Source: Tunturibacter gelidoferens (GTDB taxonomy: Bacteria > Acidobacteriota > Terriglobia > Terriglobales > Acidobacteriaceae). From it: a stretch of DNA of 64,000 nt. Location: NCBI RefSeq assembly GCF_040358255.1, contig NZ_CP132938.1, positions 4,526,001 to 4,590,000 on the forward strand. The letters run 5' to 3'. The translations under genes and the position numbers were made by a program. The notes beneath the pieces were generated by a model that saw only the letters and a list, made by a program, of their open reading frames with translations, searched no databases and was not told where the DNA came from. Every line of letters starts with the position of its first letter. Position 1 is the stretch's first letter. Shown one piece after another: positions 24,378-29,797 of this stretch.

Positions 24378-25949
24378 TCATTTCACACAGACACTCACCT
24401 CTGTCGTTGCCGTGACTGAACCGCTTGTACCCGTTACCGCAATAATATAGTCCCCGACGGTCGTACCTGAATTTGTTGTGCCGGAGCCGGTGGGTTCCAT
24501 GACTGGATTATTGATCCCGCCGCACCCGGTGGCAGTTCCGGAAACGATAGCGACTACCATCATCGGAAGTAGTGTTTGCCATCTCCATCGGATACGCCGC
24601 CGAAAAAAAACTAGAACAGCTACGGCGATGCTGTTGTAGAAGACTGAGAGTTGCTTCAGGGTGCTCAGCAACGTGGAAGCGGATGCAGTGGTGCTGATAA
24701 CGAGTGTTGCTCTCGCCGCTGTCTCCAACCACACAGTATTAGGTGCCGCAATCTTGCAGCTAGGTTGGTAAGCTGATGCTTCGGCACTGATGACAGCACA
24801 TGTCAATGCCACACTCCCACTAAATCCTTCGTTTGAAAGCACGGTGATGGTCGAATTTGCAGATGCTCCAGCAGCGACGCTGACTGGCGTGCTGGTTAGC
24901 GTGAAAGTTGGTGGAGCGCCGAGGGGCGATGCGGTGACTGTGTAGGTCCCGCGCGACAGATTGCTAAAGGTGGAGACGCCAGTCTGGTCCACGCCTCCCA
25001 ACGTAATCTCCTTCTTGCCAACAAATACGGGGGCGAAAGAAACTCTGAAATAAGCAATAACGTAGTTACCGAAGGTGGTCGCATAAGTCCCTGTACCAAA
25101 CAACGTGCATTGACTATTACTAAGGACGGCAGTTGATCCGGATGTTAGTGGCGAGCCATAGTTGGTGCCAGCGTCGTTTACAAGAAAAATGTCAGTCGAG
25201 CCAGGGTCATAACGCAACTTACATGCGTTGGCGGCGAGGGTGTTATTGCCTGAACTCTTCAGATTCAAGAAAACGGATTGAATTTGAGAGGTTACGTCTG
25301 AATATATCGCCATAAATGTCTCCTCTGAACCACTACCGGAAGAAGGCGAAATAAATACCGAGGACACACTGGCGGTGACGTTATAAGTTCCGACTTGTAT
25401 CGGTGGATTTGTATCTCCCATCCATCCTTTACTATCAGCAGACAGGTATAGTTGCTTAGCCCCCCTGAATGCAGCGGAAAACGCTACAAAAAATCTAACC
25501 GTCACACTGTCGCCGGAGATGGTTGCGGAAGATAGACTGGCCAGCACCGAGCACTGAGAGTTGCTAACACTTTGCGCAGTTTCAGCGGTGGCGGTGGTCG
25601 AGAGGAATTTACCTCCCGAGTCTTCGGCGAGCTGGATGACACCTGAACTAACGTTGTAGGTCAAAATGCATTGATCTGACGACCACCCTCTCTTACTCCC
25701 CGGAGCAACACCGTTCATAATAAAGAGAGAAAACGACTGCCCATCCGTTACACCTCTGGGAACGAAGTAGGTCGCCACAAATACCTGCTCTGAGCCATTA
25801 CCGAACGACGGAGAAAAAGACACGAGATTAACGCTTTGAGCTCTCAGAGCGATACTCGCACCTAATCCCACAAATAGAAGCGCGAGCACCTGACCTAGCC
25901 TCAACCTAGAGCGAAACGATGCGACGCCTACGAGATTGAAACGAATCAT
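24378..25949 (-). CDS. Exported protein with two repeated Cys-containing modules, Ig-like domain and a membrane hairpin
   Basis: 523 residues from the ATG at 25947-25949, preceded by GGAGG with a 6-nt spacer; an earlier ATG (26063) lacks such a site. A signal peptide ends near ALRAQ. Two modules of about 140 residues follow: SFSPSFGNGSEQVFVATY and FISPSSGSGSEETFMAIY, each ending with an SNSQC segment and a FFVAFSAAFRGAKQLYL / YFRVSFAPVFVGKKEIT strand. Then comes an Ig-like stretch (FTLTSTPVSVAAGAS), two hydrophobic segments split by FFRRRIRWRW, a GCGG motif, and a final Ig-type strand (GDYIIAVTGTSGSVTATTEV). The role is probably at the cell surface; no enzyme domain is seen. Confidence 0.7.
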   Translation of the reverse strand: MIRFNLVGVASFRSRLRLGQVLALLFVGLGASIALRAQSVNLVSFSPSFGNGSEQVFVATYFVPRGVTDGQSFSLFIMNGVAPGSKRGWSSDQCILTYNVSSGVIQLAEDSGGKFLSTTATAETAQSVSNSQCSVLASLSSATISGDSVTVRFFVAFSAAFRGAKQLYLSADSKGWMGDTNPPIQVGTYNVTASVSSVFISPSSGSGSEETFMAIYSDVTSQIQSVFLNLKSSGNNTLAANACKLRYDPGSTDIFLVNDAGTNYGSPLTSGSTAVLSNSQCTLFGTGTYATTFGNYVIAYFRVSFAPVFVGKKEITLGGVDQTGVSTFSNLSRGTYTVTASPLGAPPTFTLTSTPVSVAAGASANSTITVLSNEGFSGSVALTCAVISAEASAYQPSCKIAAPNTVWLETAARATLVISTTASASTLLSTLKQLSVFYNSIAVAVLVFFRRRIRWRWQTLLPMMVVAIVSGTATGCGGINNPVMEPTGSGTTNSGTTVGDYIIAVTGTSGSVTATTEVSVCVK

Positions 25950-26206
25950 GTCGATCCTCCGAGATTCGCGAAAGAACAAGCACGAGTTTGCACGGCTACT
26001 GTTTGCTCGTGGGATTCTGGGGCGCACAGGAACTAGTCGCCTCGCTCCCCAGCCAATAGTCAAGCTGATCGTTCGTGCTCCGTTACAAATGATCGGCTTT
26101 TACTCCCGCACAGAAATAGCAATGCGACGCGAACATCCACAATCCTGCCAATGACCTCGCTCAGCCATCAAAATGTGTTCTCCCTGCACCCTCAGCCAAC
26201 CTCTCA

Positions 26207-26968
26207 CTACTGTTTGAGGTAAGCGATCAAGTCCCGCCGCTCTTCTGCCTTGGGAACGCTAAAGCTCATATTGTTGTCCGGAACCATCAAATCGGGATCG
26301 CTCAACCACTTCTCCAGGGTCGCATCGTTCCAAGTCACGGCAGAATTTTTCAAGCCCATGGAATAAGTAAATCCCGCAATGATCCCGGCCCTTCTGCCAT
26401 ACACTCCGGCCAACCTCGGTCCCTCCCGGTCGACAGCCATCGCATGGCAGCCTGTGCACCGCTTCTCAAACACTGCTTTACCCCGCACCGCATCGCCATC
26501 CCCAGCCAATGTCGCCTCGCTCCCACCCGAACTCTTGCCGAGCATAGACAGCGTTTGCACATCGGCCTTGGAAAGCTTTGCATTCCAGTGCAGCAACCGA
26601 TACTGCAGCGGAGGCATTTCCCCGCTCTTTGCCTCTTCGAAGATCTTCGCAGTCAAAACCTCCTGCTTATCCGCCGGCATCTGCTCCCAGTATGAGAGGT
26701 CCATCTTCTTGCGTGCCTCGATGATGTCGCGCTCGATCAGCCACGATCCTGGAGCGATCCGCGCATATACTGGCCAGCGAGTCTCGCTCGAGTGGCAGTC
26801 CGCACACTTGTTCACCAGCACCGCCTTTGCGTCTGCCGGCATAGTCGCACCCTCCAGCAGCGTGCCGAGCCCCTTCGCCGGCTCGACACGCGGATTCCCA
26901 AACGGATGAACATACCCCAAAGCAACTACTACGGCTACGGTCAATGCCGCAGCAGTCCACGGGCGCAC
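26207..26968 (-). CDS. Membrane-anchored dihaem c-type cytochrome (haem-binding domain plus cytochrome c)
   Basis: 253 residues from a GTG start. An N-terminal helix (PWTAAALTVAVVVALGYVHPF) anchors or exports the protein. The first domain holds KCADCHSSETRWPVYA, the haem-binding-domain signature, with a downstream MPPLQYRLLHW axial Met candidate. The second holds RCTGCHAMAVDREGPRLAGVYGRRAG with a C-terminal MVPDNNMSF methionine ligand, a class I cytochrome c. It would carry electrons in the periplasm. Its GTG shares one base with the stop of the upstream phosphoesterase gene (TAGTG), so the two are cotranslated. Confidence 0.9.
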   Translation of the reverse strand: MRPWTAAALTVAVVVALGYVHPFGNPRVEPAKGLGTLLEGATMPADAKAVLVNKCADCHSSETRWPVYARIAPGSWLIERDIIEARKKMDLSYWEQMPADKQEVLTAKIFEEAKSGEMPPLQYRLLHWNAKLSKADVQTLSMLGKSSGGSEATLAGDGDAVRGKAVFEKRCTGCHAMAVDREGPRLAGVYGRRAGIIAGFTYSMGLKNSAVTWNDATLEKWLSDPDLMVPDNNMSFSVPKAEERRDLIAYLKQ

Positions 26969-27969
26969 TAGACAGTCCCCGCCAGGTTCGTGTCGACAAT
27001 AGCCAGATGAGTATGTCCTCGAACGACCTTGACTTTGGTCACTCCAAGCACACTCTCCAGCTTGCCCGCTGGAACCATCATCGGCCCTGGGTTCGGCGCT
27101 GCTCCCGGTGCAGGCTGCGGAAACGCCGTCGCCATTGCCGTGTGGAAGGCCACATTGCCTTCAACCTTTTGCACCACCTGGTGGATGTGACCGTTCAGAA
27201 CCGTCACCGAACCAAAGGGCTTCAGCATGGCCAGCGCCTGCTCTCCATCCTTCGTGCCCCATCCCCACTTCTCATAGACCATCCACAAAGGAATATGCGC
27301 GAAGACCACGATAGGGGTCGAGTGGCTCAACCCGGCCAGGTCAGACTTCAGCCACTTCAATTGGTCATCGCCCATATTCCCCATCGCATCTACTTGCACG
27401 CAGTTGTTCAAGCCTACAAAGTGAACCCCTTTGTGGTTGTAGCTGTACCAACCATTGCCCACAGTGCCCTTGCCAAAACGTTGTTTGTACTGCGCACCAT
27501 CGTCGATATAGTCGTGCTCTCCCGGCACATAGAACACTTCGTTCTTGAACCCTTTAATGACCTGCGACGCGGTATCGAACTCCGCTGCTTTCGAATTCTG
27601 CGTGATGTCGCCGGTGTGAAGCATGAAATCGGGGGCCTTCATGCCGGCAGGCACAATATTGGCCCTGTCAATCGCCTTCTTCAGCGTTCCTGTTACATCC
27701 GGGTTGGCACCTTTATTGAAACCAATGTGGCTGTCGCTAATCTGCACAAAGGAGAAGTCTTCCACCTTACCAACCCCAGCAGCAGCACCACCCTTCATCG
27801 TCTGCGCTAACAACGTCGAAGTTGGCACGCCGCCAGCCATCGACCACAGGAGCCCTGTGCCGGCCCATGCCATACACCCTAAAAAATTGCGCCGATCGAT
27901 GCCATCTCCCGCGGATCGCGCAGCACCCTGGTCTGCTCGCATTACTTCGTCTTCTTTGAACCGACTCAT
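26968..27969 (-). CDS. Tat-exported calcineurin-like metallophosphoesterase
   Basis: 333 residues. The N-terminus has DRRNFLGCMAWAGTGLLWS, a twin-arginine-type signal. The metallophosphoesterase motifs are all present in order: QISDSHIG, LHTGDITQN, YVPGEHDYI (the family usually has GNHD; here Glu replaces Asn), VVFAHIPLW and LNGHIHQ. The start ATG has GGAG 7 nt upstream. It forms a coupled pair with the following cytochrome c, an uncommon partnership. The Asn-to-Glu change at the catalytic GNHD motif occurs in some secreted subfamilies, so activity cannot be excluded. Confidence 0.9.
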   Translation of the reverse strand: MSRFKEDEVMRADQGAARSAGDGIDRRNFLGCMAWAGTGLLWSMAGGVPTSTLLAQTMKGGAAAGVGKVEDFSFVQISDSHIGFNKGANPDVTGTLKKAIDRANIVPAGMKAPDFMLHTGDITQNSKAAEFDTASQVIKGFKNEVFYVPGEHDYIDDGAQYKQRFGKGTVGNGWYSYNHKGVHFVGLNNCVQVDAMGNMGDDQLKWLKSDLAGLSHSTPIVVFAHIPLWMVYEKWGWGTKDGEQALAMLKPFGSVTVLNGHIHQVVQKVEGNVAFHTAMATAFPQPAPGAAPNPGPMMVPAGKLESVLGVTKVKVVRGHTHLAIVDTNLAGTV

Positions 27970-28457
27970 ATCAAGCTCCGTTTGTTTTTGATCGCCAACA
28001 CCCTCCTAAACTGGCGAGACGCGCGTTTATTCCCGTCCGTCCAAAAAAAAGCGCGAGGAATAATCCGTCATCATTATGGTTAGCAAAGATGTCTGTTTGT
28101 CTGCTGTAGCCGAGGGACGGCAAGTCTCGCGCTCATTTCTAGAACGCTGTAAATCCCATGGAATAAATCCGCCTCTCATCTTTAGTTTGAGGAGTGATAC
28201 AAGACTTCTCTTCAGCCAAGGTTCCGACATGCGTTTTCGCTACCAATCCTTGATATTCGTCTCATGCTGATCCTCACACCATGACCCCTGAAACCGTACA
28301 CAACGCCCGTTCCTCCATCCCCCGGGCATCCTGCTCGCCTGACTTTGCTATGATCCTCAAAGCTGCTGAGCCTGGTAGTCGTTGGGATCAATCCTGGTCT
28401 GGGTCCGCCCCCTGGACCGCAGTCCATAACCCCAGCCAGCTCGAGGCAAACCGCACC
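27970..28457. other. Long intergenic region between divergent phosphoesterase and sigma-factor genes
   Basis: 488 bp. It presumably holds promoters for both directions. Two short frames overlap on opposite strands (28076-28270 plus, 28027-28230 minus), but neither has a ribosome site or recognisable protein features. An A-run at about 28043 is the only simple sequence. No tRNA or hairpin terminator was recognised. Confidence 0.4.
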
Positions 28458-28994
28458 ATGCTCTCTGAAAACACCCGCAGCGCAGACTTCGAGCGACTCG
28501 CGCTTCCTCTCTTCGCATCGCTCTACAACCACGCCTTCTGGCTCACTCATGATCATGCCGAGGCCGAAGATCTCGTGCAGGAGACCTTCTCCAAGGCTCT
28601 CCGTGCCTTCGACTCCTTCCAGTCCGGCACCAACTTCAAGGCCTGGGTCTTCCGCATTCTTCGAAACACCTTTCTCACCTCGCGCACTGGCATCGCCGCC
28701 TCCCGCACCGTCTACCTCGAAGACAATCCCGAAACACTCGACACCACCAACGCTGGCCCCACCCCGGAAGACACTCTCATTCGTCTCGACAACCAGGCCG
28801 CTCTCAACATCGCACTCGATCAGCTTCCGTCACAACTTCGCGAAGTTTTGCTCCTCTGCGACGTTGAAGAGATCAAATACAAAGACATCGCCCTCATCCT
28901 CGACGTCCCCATCGGCACGGTTATGTCGCGCGTTTCACGCGCCCGCAGCACCCTCCGTCAACTCTTGCAACCGCAATTTGGGGAATCCCTATGA
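28458..28994 (+). CDS. ECF-type RNA polymerase sigma factor
   Basis: 178 residues from the ATG at 28458 (GAGG upstream); the frame is open to 28281 but the extra residues do not resemble a sigma factor. Region 2 is visible as LYNHAFWLTHDHAEAEDLVQETFSKALRAFDSFQ and FKAWVFRILRNTFL. Region 4 is LDQLPSQLREVLLLCDVEEIKYKDIALILDVPIGTVMSRVSRARSTLRQLL. This is a typical two-domain group 4 factor directing transcription of a regulon unknown here. It overlaps its downstream anti-sigma gene by 4 bp (ATGA), so they are translated together. Confidence 0.93.
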   Translation: MLSENTRSADFERLALPLFASLYNHAFWLTHDHAEAEDLVQETFSKALRAFDSFQSGTNFKAWVFRILRNTFLTSRTGIAASRTVYLEDNPETLDTTNAGPTPEDTLIRLDNQAALNIALDQLPSQLREVLLLCDVEEIKYKDIALILDVPIGTVMSRVSRARSTLRQLLQPQFGESL

Positions 28995-29797
28995 ATCAGA
29001 TGTCGCAAAACAATCGGTCAATGGAACATCTCAATCCAGACGAGCTCAACGCCTTTATCGACGGCGAACTCTCATCGAGCGAGCAGGACGGAATTCAGCT
29101 TCATCTCTCCACCTGCCATGCCTGCACGCTCCGCGTCCTCTCCGCGACACGACTCAAGGCCGCCACCGCCCGCGCCGGGCAACGATTCGCCCCGCCGCCC
29201 GAAGCCCTCGCCCGCCTTACCACCCGGCTCCATTCGCACCAAACGCAGACCGCGCAAACGCAACCGAAAACGTTTGCAACCATCTCTCACTTCCGTCCCG
29301 CAGTCTGGACAGCCCTCGCTGCGGGTATCCTTCTTACCCTCTCACTCCTCGGTTGGCGTCAGCTGCATCCAATCAACAACCTCGCCGCAGAACTCCTCGA
29401 CCAGCACCTCGCAACTCTCTCCAACGGAGCGGCCCCACAAGTCATCTCGACCGATCGGCACACCGTTAAACCGTGGTTTCAAGGTCGTCTTCCCTTTAGC
29501 TTCAACCTTCCCGACTCCCTGCCGCCCGATACCATCCTAAAAGGAGCCGACCTCACCTACCTCAACGGACAACCGGCCGCACTGCTCCTCTTCACCATTC
29601 ACAGACATGAAGTCTCCATCTTCCTAACGCAACGATCCACCAGCCCAACCCTCACAACACTGCCCAATACACGTGCAGGTTTCAATCTCCAAACCGCCAC
29701 CACATCAGACCTGCGTATTGTTGCCGTCAGCGACGTCAATCCCGCCGACCTCGATCTCCTGGTGGCCGCCTTGGTTCATATACAAAAATCCGCGTGA
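28991..29797 (+). CDS. Anti-sigma factor with zinc-binding zf-HC2 domain and single membrane helix
   Basis: 268 residues. The N-terminal domain has LNPDELNAFIDGELSSSEQDGIQLHLSTCHAC with the His-x3-Cys-x2-Cys zinc motif of anti-sigma ZAS domains. A transmembrane helix (AVWTALAAGILLTLSLLGW) near residues 105-125 places the rest outside. The extracytoplasmic domain resembles no known sensor but carries a beta-rich pattern. By family, it holds the upstream sigma factor inactive until a signal, often redox or envelope stress, releases it. The ATGA overlap with the sigma gene supports the pairing. Confidence 0.9.
   Translation: MNQMSQNNRSMEHLNPDELNAFIDGELSSSEQDGIQLHLSTCHACTLRVLSATRLKAATARAGQRFAPPPEALARLTTRLHSHQTQTAQTQPKTFATISHFRPAVWTALAAGILLTLSLLGWRQLHPINNLAAELLDQHLATLSNGAAPQVISTDRHTVKPWFQGRLPFSFNLPDSLPPDTILKGADLTYLNGQPAALLLFTIHRHEVSIFLTQRSTSPTLTTLPNTRAGFNLQTATTSDLRIVAVSDVNPADLDLLVAALVHIQKSA

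Follow-up and report, generated by a model that had tools for sequence, protein, structure and literature searches.

Our analyses have identified, in the window examined here (the whole 64-kb stretch of DNA that was analysed), a locus of four genes that is rather likely to constitute an autoregulated periplasmic redox module, which is organised around a protein of the metallophosphoesterase (MPE) fold and is served by an extracytoplasmic function (ECF) sigma factor of its own. The preliminary description of this DNA covered only the MPE gene and the adjacent cytochrome gene; its coordinates (26207-27969) are correct, but they omit a sigma/anti-sigma gene pair (28281-29797) and two facing promoter-like sites, all of which we treat below as parts of the same locus. 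The members of this MPE family carry a characteristic Glu residue in a metal-binding motif, and a gene for an electron carrier is found beside nearly all of them.

The MPE gene (26968..27969, minus strand) begins with an ATG codon and encodes a protein of 333 amino acids (aa) with a Tat-type N-terminus, whose assignment is based upon its open reading frame (ORF), a Pfam match, alignments and a GpdQ-like predicted fold. The match to the PF00149 profile (E 1.2e-12) scores 49.2 bits against a gathering score of 21.5, and all 62 members of our set A2 also match this profile at E <= 0.01. Alignment with 13 close orthologues indicates that the DxH, GD, H and GHxH motifs are present in the window MPE, and a protein of 100% identity is found in Edaphobacter lichenicola M8UP30, the host of the window being a Terriglobales acidobacterium. 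The N-terminus, as read off the sequence, opens with the twin-arginine motif DRRNFL, and the protein is probably exported. Residues 22-42 within this Tat-type N-terminus are unusually strongly conserved, as though the segment served as a working anchor; Cys32 is found in 114 and Trp35 in 113 of the 119 main-family sequences, and both are absent from the 23 distant ones. Two further positions, Trp235 and Trp237, which are located downstream of the His225 motif, are occupied by Trp in every readable MPE sequence. Against the NCBIfam equivalog model for CpdA (NF008359) the window MPE scores 51.4 bits, where the cut-off is 225, and no phosphoesterase model reached its cut-off when five MPEs (those of the window and of loci L116, L173, L150 and L152) were scanned with NCBIfam; the name cyclic-nucleotide phosphodiesterase was therefore dropped for these proteins.

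An AlphaFold model of the window MPE, which contains no metals and has a middling pLDDT of 64.9, most closely resembles the class III phosphodiesterases. Comparison of this model with GpdQ (2dxl) gave a Z score of 19.8 and an rmsd of 2.8 over 208 residues, with a Foldseek E-value of 4.1e-9, and Rv0805 gave a Z score of 17.7; the purple acid phosphatases follow at a Z score of about 14 (~13-22% identity among the matches listed). SoxB, a hydrolase of the MPE fold that functions alongside cytochromes, was also considered; its chains are 544-548 residues long compared to 333 in the window MPE, and a SoxB-like thiosulfohydrolase was set aside because the Foldseek match of the fold is weak (E 0.012). 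The MPE thus combines a predicted GpdQ-like fold with a metal-binding motif, normally GNHD, in which Glu takes the place of Asn, as the alignments show. It has in common with the GpdQ, Rv0805 and CpdA-type enzymes the fold and the DxH, GD, H and GHxH motifs, and it differs from them in this Glu residue, in its Tat-type N-terminus and in having a carrier and an ECF sigma factor as partners.

The Asn of the GNH(D/E) motif is a metal ligand, and the canonical form of the motif is not found in the window MPE, which has GEHD at residues 150-153 (27511..27522, minus strand), as the preliminary description had noted; in the alignment with GpdQ, this Glu is placed opposite the Asn of the GpdQ GNHD motif. 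The suggestion made there, that orthologues be examined for the same Glu, led to a clear result: GEHD is present in all 13 close orthologues that were aligned, and Glu occupies the Asn site in all 141 sequences that are readable there among 142 wider relatives. All 14 readable paralogues, on the other hand, have Asn at this site (GNHD in 13 and GNHE in one), the paralogue at L018 having a second GEHD string in addition to its GNHD. A GEHD phosphoesterase paired with an electron carrier had been called uncommon; since the Glu is invariant in these relatives, GEHD is better viewed as the mark of a family. The Glu perhaps arose only once, in which case its link with the carrier may represent one event.

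The gene adjoining that of the MPE (26207..26968, minus strand) has a GTG start codon and encodes a protein of 253 aa, which consists of a Haem_bd domain (residues 32-140; PF14376, E 1.1e-32) followed by a class I cytochrome c domain (residues 161-253; PF00034 Cytochrom_C, E 3.2e-10). Both profiles and two CxxCH motifs, viz. CADCH (26792..26806, minus strand) and CTGCH (26444..26458, minus strand), are present in this protein, and its earlier designation as a dihaem cytochrome is thereby confirmed. A hydrophobic segment can be read off at its N-terminus; this segment and the Tat motif of the MPE accord with the proposal that both proteins are exported, and on these features export is presumed. 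The MPE stop codon and the cytochrome start codon do have one base in common (GTC TAG / GTG CGC, i.e., TAGTG), as was claimed. In the 49 loci with a carrier of the same Haem_bd plus cytochrome c type, the MPE stop codon shows a 4-base overlap with the start of the cytochrome gene in 38 cases and a 1-base overlap in 2 (one of which is a damaged second copy), with neither in the remaining 9, and the cytochrome lies in the frame of the 4-base overlap in 42 of the 49. An overlap is therefore typical of the group and is mostly of 4 bases, so that the idea of TAGTG itself as a special signal was dropped. Just downstream of the cytochrome gene, at 24378-26063 on the minus strand of the window, is a gene for a 561-aa protein for which no Pfam match was found; its C-terminus resembles by eye that of a TIGR03118 protein from a genomic island described below, and the latter protein matches a 'lipo-invert' tail.

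On the opposite strand, the window contains a gene for an ECF sigma factor (28281..28994, plus strand), which is recognised by the Sigma70_r2/r4 profiles and by its orthologues, several of whose ORFs start near codon 60 (28458), and a gene for an anti-sigma factor with a zf-HC2 zinc-finger domain (28991..29797, plus strand), which is likewise supported by profiles and orthologues; the Sigma70_r2/r4 and zf-HC2 domains are found in paired genes. A strong orthologue of the MPE is present in 14 of 61 related genomes. The cytochrome gene adjoins it in all 14, and the sigma gene is near it in 13, the fourteenth locus being cut by a contig end. The four genes are arranged divergently in 11 genomes and in a single direction in two others (G002 and G051). 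Because the sigma factor, anti-sigma factor, MPE and cytochrome genes stay together despite these changes in order, they were treated as one unit. Among the 97 wider MPE loci with at least 3 kb of sequence on both sides, a sigma gene is near in 75 and absent from the vicinity in 22, and sigma and anti-sigma genes are both near in 62. The preliminary description would have been undermined if the MPE-cytochrome pair were limited to close strains; the pair is instead conserved well beyond them. Second cassettes are found in two genomes (L051 in G000, the genome of the window, and L053 in G031), and both contain a damaged MPE gene beside an intact cytochrome ORF: one of these MPE genes has a one-base frameshift near codon 226, and the other has an in-frame gap of 99 bases that starts at codon 248 and takes in the GHxH motif, plus a one-base difference near its start. 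The intact cytochrome beside a damaged MPE indicates that the cytochrome may be useful alone.

The wider relatives were obtained from several sources. A genome collection yielded 491 relatives among 539 pattern matches, and the best 80 of the 491 were taken; a sample of 396 genomes from the host phylum contained 42 with a match at E <= 1e-50; 194 genomes from the phylum of a record named Verrucomicrobia gave 6 matches at E <= 1e-90; 247 genomes from the phylum of a record named Bacteroidetes gave 2 matches; and an MPE relative was found in 17 of the 72,556 records of a plasmid collection, of which 16 were fetched and one (H17) was left out. A search through the phylum of a record named 'Nevskia soli' (L130), by which proteobacterial genomes were to be reached, gave hits identical in bit score and position to those from the Acidobacteriota, and this record name is probably incorrect. 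The resulting set of 142 loci (71 from the genome collection, 14 from the plasmid collection and the rest from the genome searches) contains MPEs that score 150 bits or more, those with an identical 120-residue stretch having been removed; it leans to the Acidobacteriota, and near copies have been removed from it in part. A carrier gene on the same strand and within 1.5 kb of the MPE is present in 138 of these 142 loci, as labelled with thresholds looser than those for the locus set and with profiles that were made from the MPE neighbours themselves and so favour near matches.

The type of carrier changes with the clade. The 138 carriers comprise 49 of the Haem_bd plus cytochrome c type, 43 cupredoxins, 16 cytochromes c, 10 Rieske proteins, 8 reaction-centre-type cytochromes, 7 CuA-like proteins and 5 of the CuA-like plus cytochrome c type, and examples of all of these types are confirmed by Pfam (viz. 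Copper-bind/Cupredoxin_1, COX2, Cytochrom_C, CytoC_RC and Rieske). The Cx3Cx3Hx2M motif of the CuA-like proteins is presumably a CuA site. No carrier was detected in the remaining four of the 142 loci (L122, L144, L149 and L154): the contig of L122 stops 486 bases downstream of the MPE, and in L144 a sequence that begins like a cupredoxin loses its reading frame, whereas the absence in L149 and L154 is unexplained. All 36 loci whose flanks extend for 7 kb or more to either side have a carrier closer than 1.5 kb, and the distance bins of 1.5-4 kb and 4-7 kb contain one locus each. The carrier is also present in 19 loci that have room on both sides and no sigma gene near. As a control, Pfam, which is independent of our profiles, was run on the neighbours of 16 paralogues with GNH in the ORF, for which ORFs of 90 aa or more on the same strand and no further away than about 1.5 kb were taken; none of these 47 neighbours matched a carrier or sigma family; our own profiles, applied to either strand, also detected no carrier or sigma gene beside the 16 paralogues.

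In six MPEs the carrier is part of the same polypeptide, as a C-terminal cupredoxin domain with a complete copper motif. The fusions are found in members of the Acidobacteriota (L116, L126, L138 and L196), in Gemmatirosa (L148) and in a locus from the search of the Bacteroidetes phylum (L208), and that of L116 is confirmed by Pfam. The fused cupredoxins contain a CxxHPxM loop, which we take to be an amicyanin-like loop; among the NCBIfam models, that for amicyanin fits the fused domain of L116 best, yet its score of 48.1 bits is below the cut-off of 110.2. On an MPE tree of 138 sequences, which omits L014 (a fragment), L154, L051 and L053, the five carrier groups require 6 changes, where the minimum possible is 4 and the mean for shuffled labels is 62.3; since the tree has several weak deep forks, and long branches that come together, only the minimum of 4 switches is firm.

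Some individual loci show additional features. In some loci from the Verrucomicrobia, a DUF2231 membrane protein is encoded beside the cytochrome c, and in one case (L139:8940-9626) the DUF2231 membrane domain is fused to cytochrome c; three histidines are shared by 85% or more of the 32 DUF2231 sequences compared, which hints that DUF2231 may be a haem b protein. A Mycobacteroides abscessus plasmid (L152) carries in a row a molybdopterin oxidoreductase gene followed by genes for a sigma factor, a Rieske protein, a cupredoxin and the MPE. L149 and L216 are Burkholderia vietnamiensis plasmids; the L149 MPE, for which no carrier was detected, is located between chromate-resistance and ABC-uptake genes, and a Tn3 transposase gene lies a few kb from it.

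A shared promoter-like motif connects the two operons of the window. One copy of GGAATAA-N15-GTT, found by motif search, faces the MPE-cytochrome operon (28009..28033, minus strand) and another faces the sigma/anti-sigma operon (28057..28081, plus strand). These are the only two GGAATAA-N14..17-GTT sites in the 64-kb window, where 0.17 are expected and two were reached in 1 of 100 shuffles, for a pattern that was picked after the motif had been seen in the relatives and in the window. Among the relatives, GGAATA-N15..17-GTT precedes the MPE gene in 36 of 49 loci with the Haem_bd plus cytochrome c carrier, 22 of 43 with a cupredoxin, 4 of 16 with a cytochrome c and 3 of 12 with a CuA-like protein, and in none of the 10 Rieske or 8 reaction-centre-type loci; upstream of the sigma gene, the corresponding numbers are 34/46, 11/20, 2/15 and 2/10 for the first four groups. 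The sigma-side site of the window is not among the 34 because it falls just past the 400-base search region. At most 0.15 such sites are expected per group from shuffles that preserve letters only and not dinucleotides, and a single spacing accounts for 107 of the 119 motif sites of the relatives; the motif was first picked from these same loci, and shared ancestry by itself preserves such similarity. The whole genome contains 16 exact matches to GGAATAA-N15-GTT compared to 3 for the reversed control, and 10 of the 16 fall within a 34-kb island outside the window (G000:C2:4914301-4948255; L235-L237). This island contains genes for a dihaem oxidoreductase (DHOR), a Tat-type Ferritin_2 protein, a TIGR03118 protein, a PhyH protein and a histidine kinase, together with another ECF sigma gene and the second sigma/anti-sigma/MPE/cytochrome cassette, a set of genes reminiscent of a periplasmic redox stress regulon. 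We consider it highly probable that the MPE-cytochrome and sigma/anti-sigma operons are under shared ECF control.

According to the reading that we favour, the ECF sigma factor would be held by its zinc-finger anti-sigma factor and, when active, would drive the sigma/anti-sigma and MPE-cytochrome operons alike through the two divergent copies of the motif. The MPE would work with a dedicated one-electron carrier, which is the dihaem cytochrome in this locus and a cupredoxin, a CuA-like protein, a Rieske protein or another cytochrome elsewhere, the association and the fusions being observed in the genomes and the coupling being presumed. The preliminary description had proposed that the pair may form a redox-linked enzyme; the six fusions and the near-constant presence of a neighbouring carrier favour a redox-linked protein, and functional coupling of MPE and carrier, as judged from genomes alone, is quite probable, although neither proximity nor fusion is proof that electrons pass into the MPE. 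Its other proposal, that the haem serves in substrate sensing, is unlikely as a general role and was dropped as such, since several types of carrier occur, of which the haem protein is but one, and the carrier in other clades is a copper or Rieske protein. The carrier would most likely exchange electrons with the two-metal site of the MPE or with the product of the MPE, and this exchange would connect a reaction in the periplasm with the respiratory chain, by analogy with periplasmic sulfite dehydrogenase, which hands electrons to cytochrome c or pseudoazurin. That the MPE itself performs redox chemistry is a tentative suggestion, and a flow of electrons in the direction from MPE to carrier is rather doubtful.

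The main alternative to such coupling is that the MPE is an ordinary periplasmic phosphodiesterase or phosphatase, and that enzyme and carrier have separate jobs within one ECF regulon for envelope or oxidative stress. The fold and most of the motifs are indeed those of active phosphodiesterases, as the Z scores for GpdQ and Rv0805 indicate, and the presence of other exported or redox genes (DHOR, Ferritin_2, TIGR03118 and PhyH) in the 34-kb island means that co-regulation may occur without contact between the products. This explanation is also helped by the strongest counter-example to a coupling, which comes from Bacillus subtilis: UpsH (YpbG), an MPE under ECF control, is described as a hydrolase, and no electron carrier is named for it in the available part of that study (PMC11898649). 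Separate jobs, however, do not account readily for the six MPE-cupredoxin fusions, for the start/stop overlap in 40 of 49 loci, or for a carrier that is kept beside the MPE whatever its type and even in the 19 loci with no sigma gene near, and we consider this explanation unlikely.

Purple acid phosphatases contain redox-active iron in a dimetal site, and their place among the structural relatives of the model brings in a further possibility, viz. that the iron centre of a hydrolytic MPE is mixed-valent, and that the carrier maintains the active oxidation state of this iron or switches the enzyme according to the periplasmic redox state. Replacement of Asn by Glu would add a negative ligand and could shift the metal potential in keeping with such a role; known purple acid phosphatases nevertheless manage without a dedicated carrier, none being known to us, and a guarding function of this kind appears quite improbable. 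A chance neighbourhood or hitch-hiking could explain any single locus, and near copies inflate the counts, but several unrelated carrier types recur beside one MPE family in records named as Acidobacteria, Verrucomicrobia, Bacteroidetes, Gemmatimonadota, Burkholderiaceae and Actinomycetota, and none of the 47 paralogue neighbours is a carrier; accident is thus extremely improbable as the explanation of the whole pattern, and a functional coupling of MPE and carrier remains our preferred reading.

Parallels to parts of this arrangement exist in known systems. The B. subtilis protein UpsH, which frees the carrier lipid undecaprenyl phosphate, is similar in being an MPE that is controlled by a stress sigma factor of ECF type, SigM, for which an anti-sigma complex exists; the authors of that study anticipate that MPEs will occur in other envelope-stress regulons as well (PMC11898649). 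It differs in that no electron carrier is named in the available part of that study, the word 'cytochrome' being absent from the main text, and in that it belongs to COG1408 and acts upon undecaprenyl-diphosphate-linked polymers, a comparison with the window MPE that is made by description (PMC11898649). The closest organisational analogue is the RpoE4 regulon of Sinorhizobium meliloti, as far as the accessible part of its description goes, in which an enzyme of the periplasm, a cytochrome c and a cupredoxin are jointly induced by an ECF sigma factor: the sulfite oxidase SMc04049, the cytochrome c SMc04048 and the pseudoazurin SMc04047 respond together (PMC6180224). The window has an MPE in the place where the sulfite oxidase stands in that regulon (PMC6180224); no sulfite oxidase caught our attention beside the window locus. 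The promoter of S. meliloti SMc01418, which is next to rpoE1, contains GGGAATAA, and the likeness to the RpoE1/RpoE4 systems is one of promoter and gene content only (PMC6180224). Our literature search, which covered openly accessible papers, found no paper on the pairing of an MPE with an electron carrier.

Metallophosphoesterases are generally regarded as hydrolases. The family marked by GEHD, which, judging by the names of the records, occurs in about six phyla and is tied to several unrelated types of carrier, could be a family of periplasmic oxidoreductases built on the MPE fold, in which the Glu would give a carboxylate-richer dimetal site suited to one-electron chemistry with exchangeable partners, many of the units having their own stress-matched ECF sigma factor; we regard this wider proposal as speculative and somewhat unlikely in its full form. 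If true, it would represent a redox-linked use of the MPE fold that was not found in print within the literature searched, and it would provide a testable function for proteins whose annotation at present is simply 'metallophosphoesterase'. The fusions, together with the small regulated operon, make this redox question directly testable.
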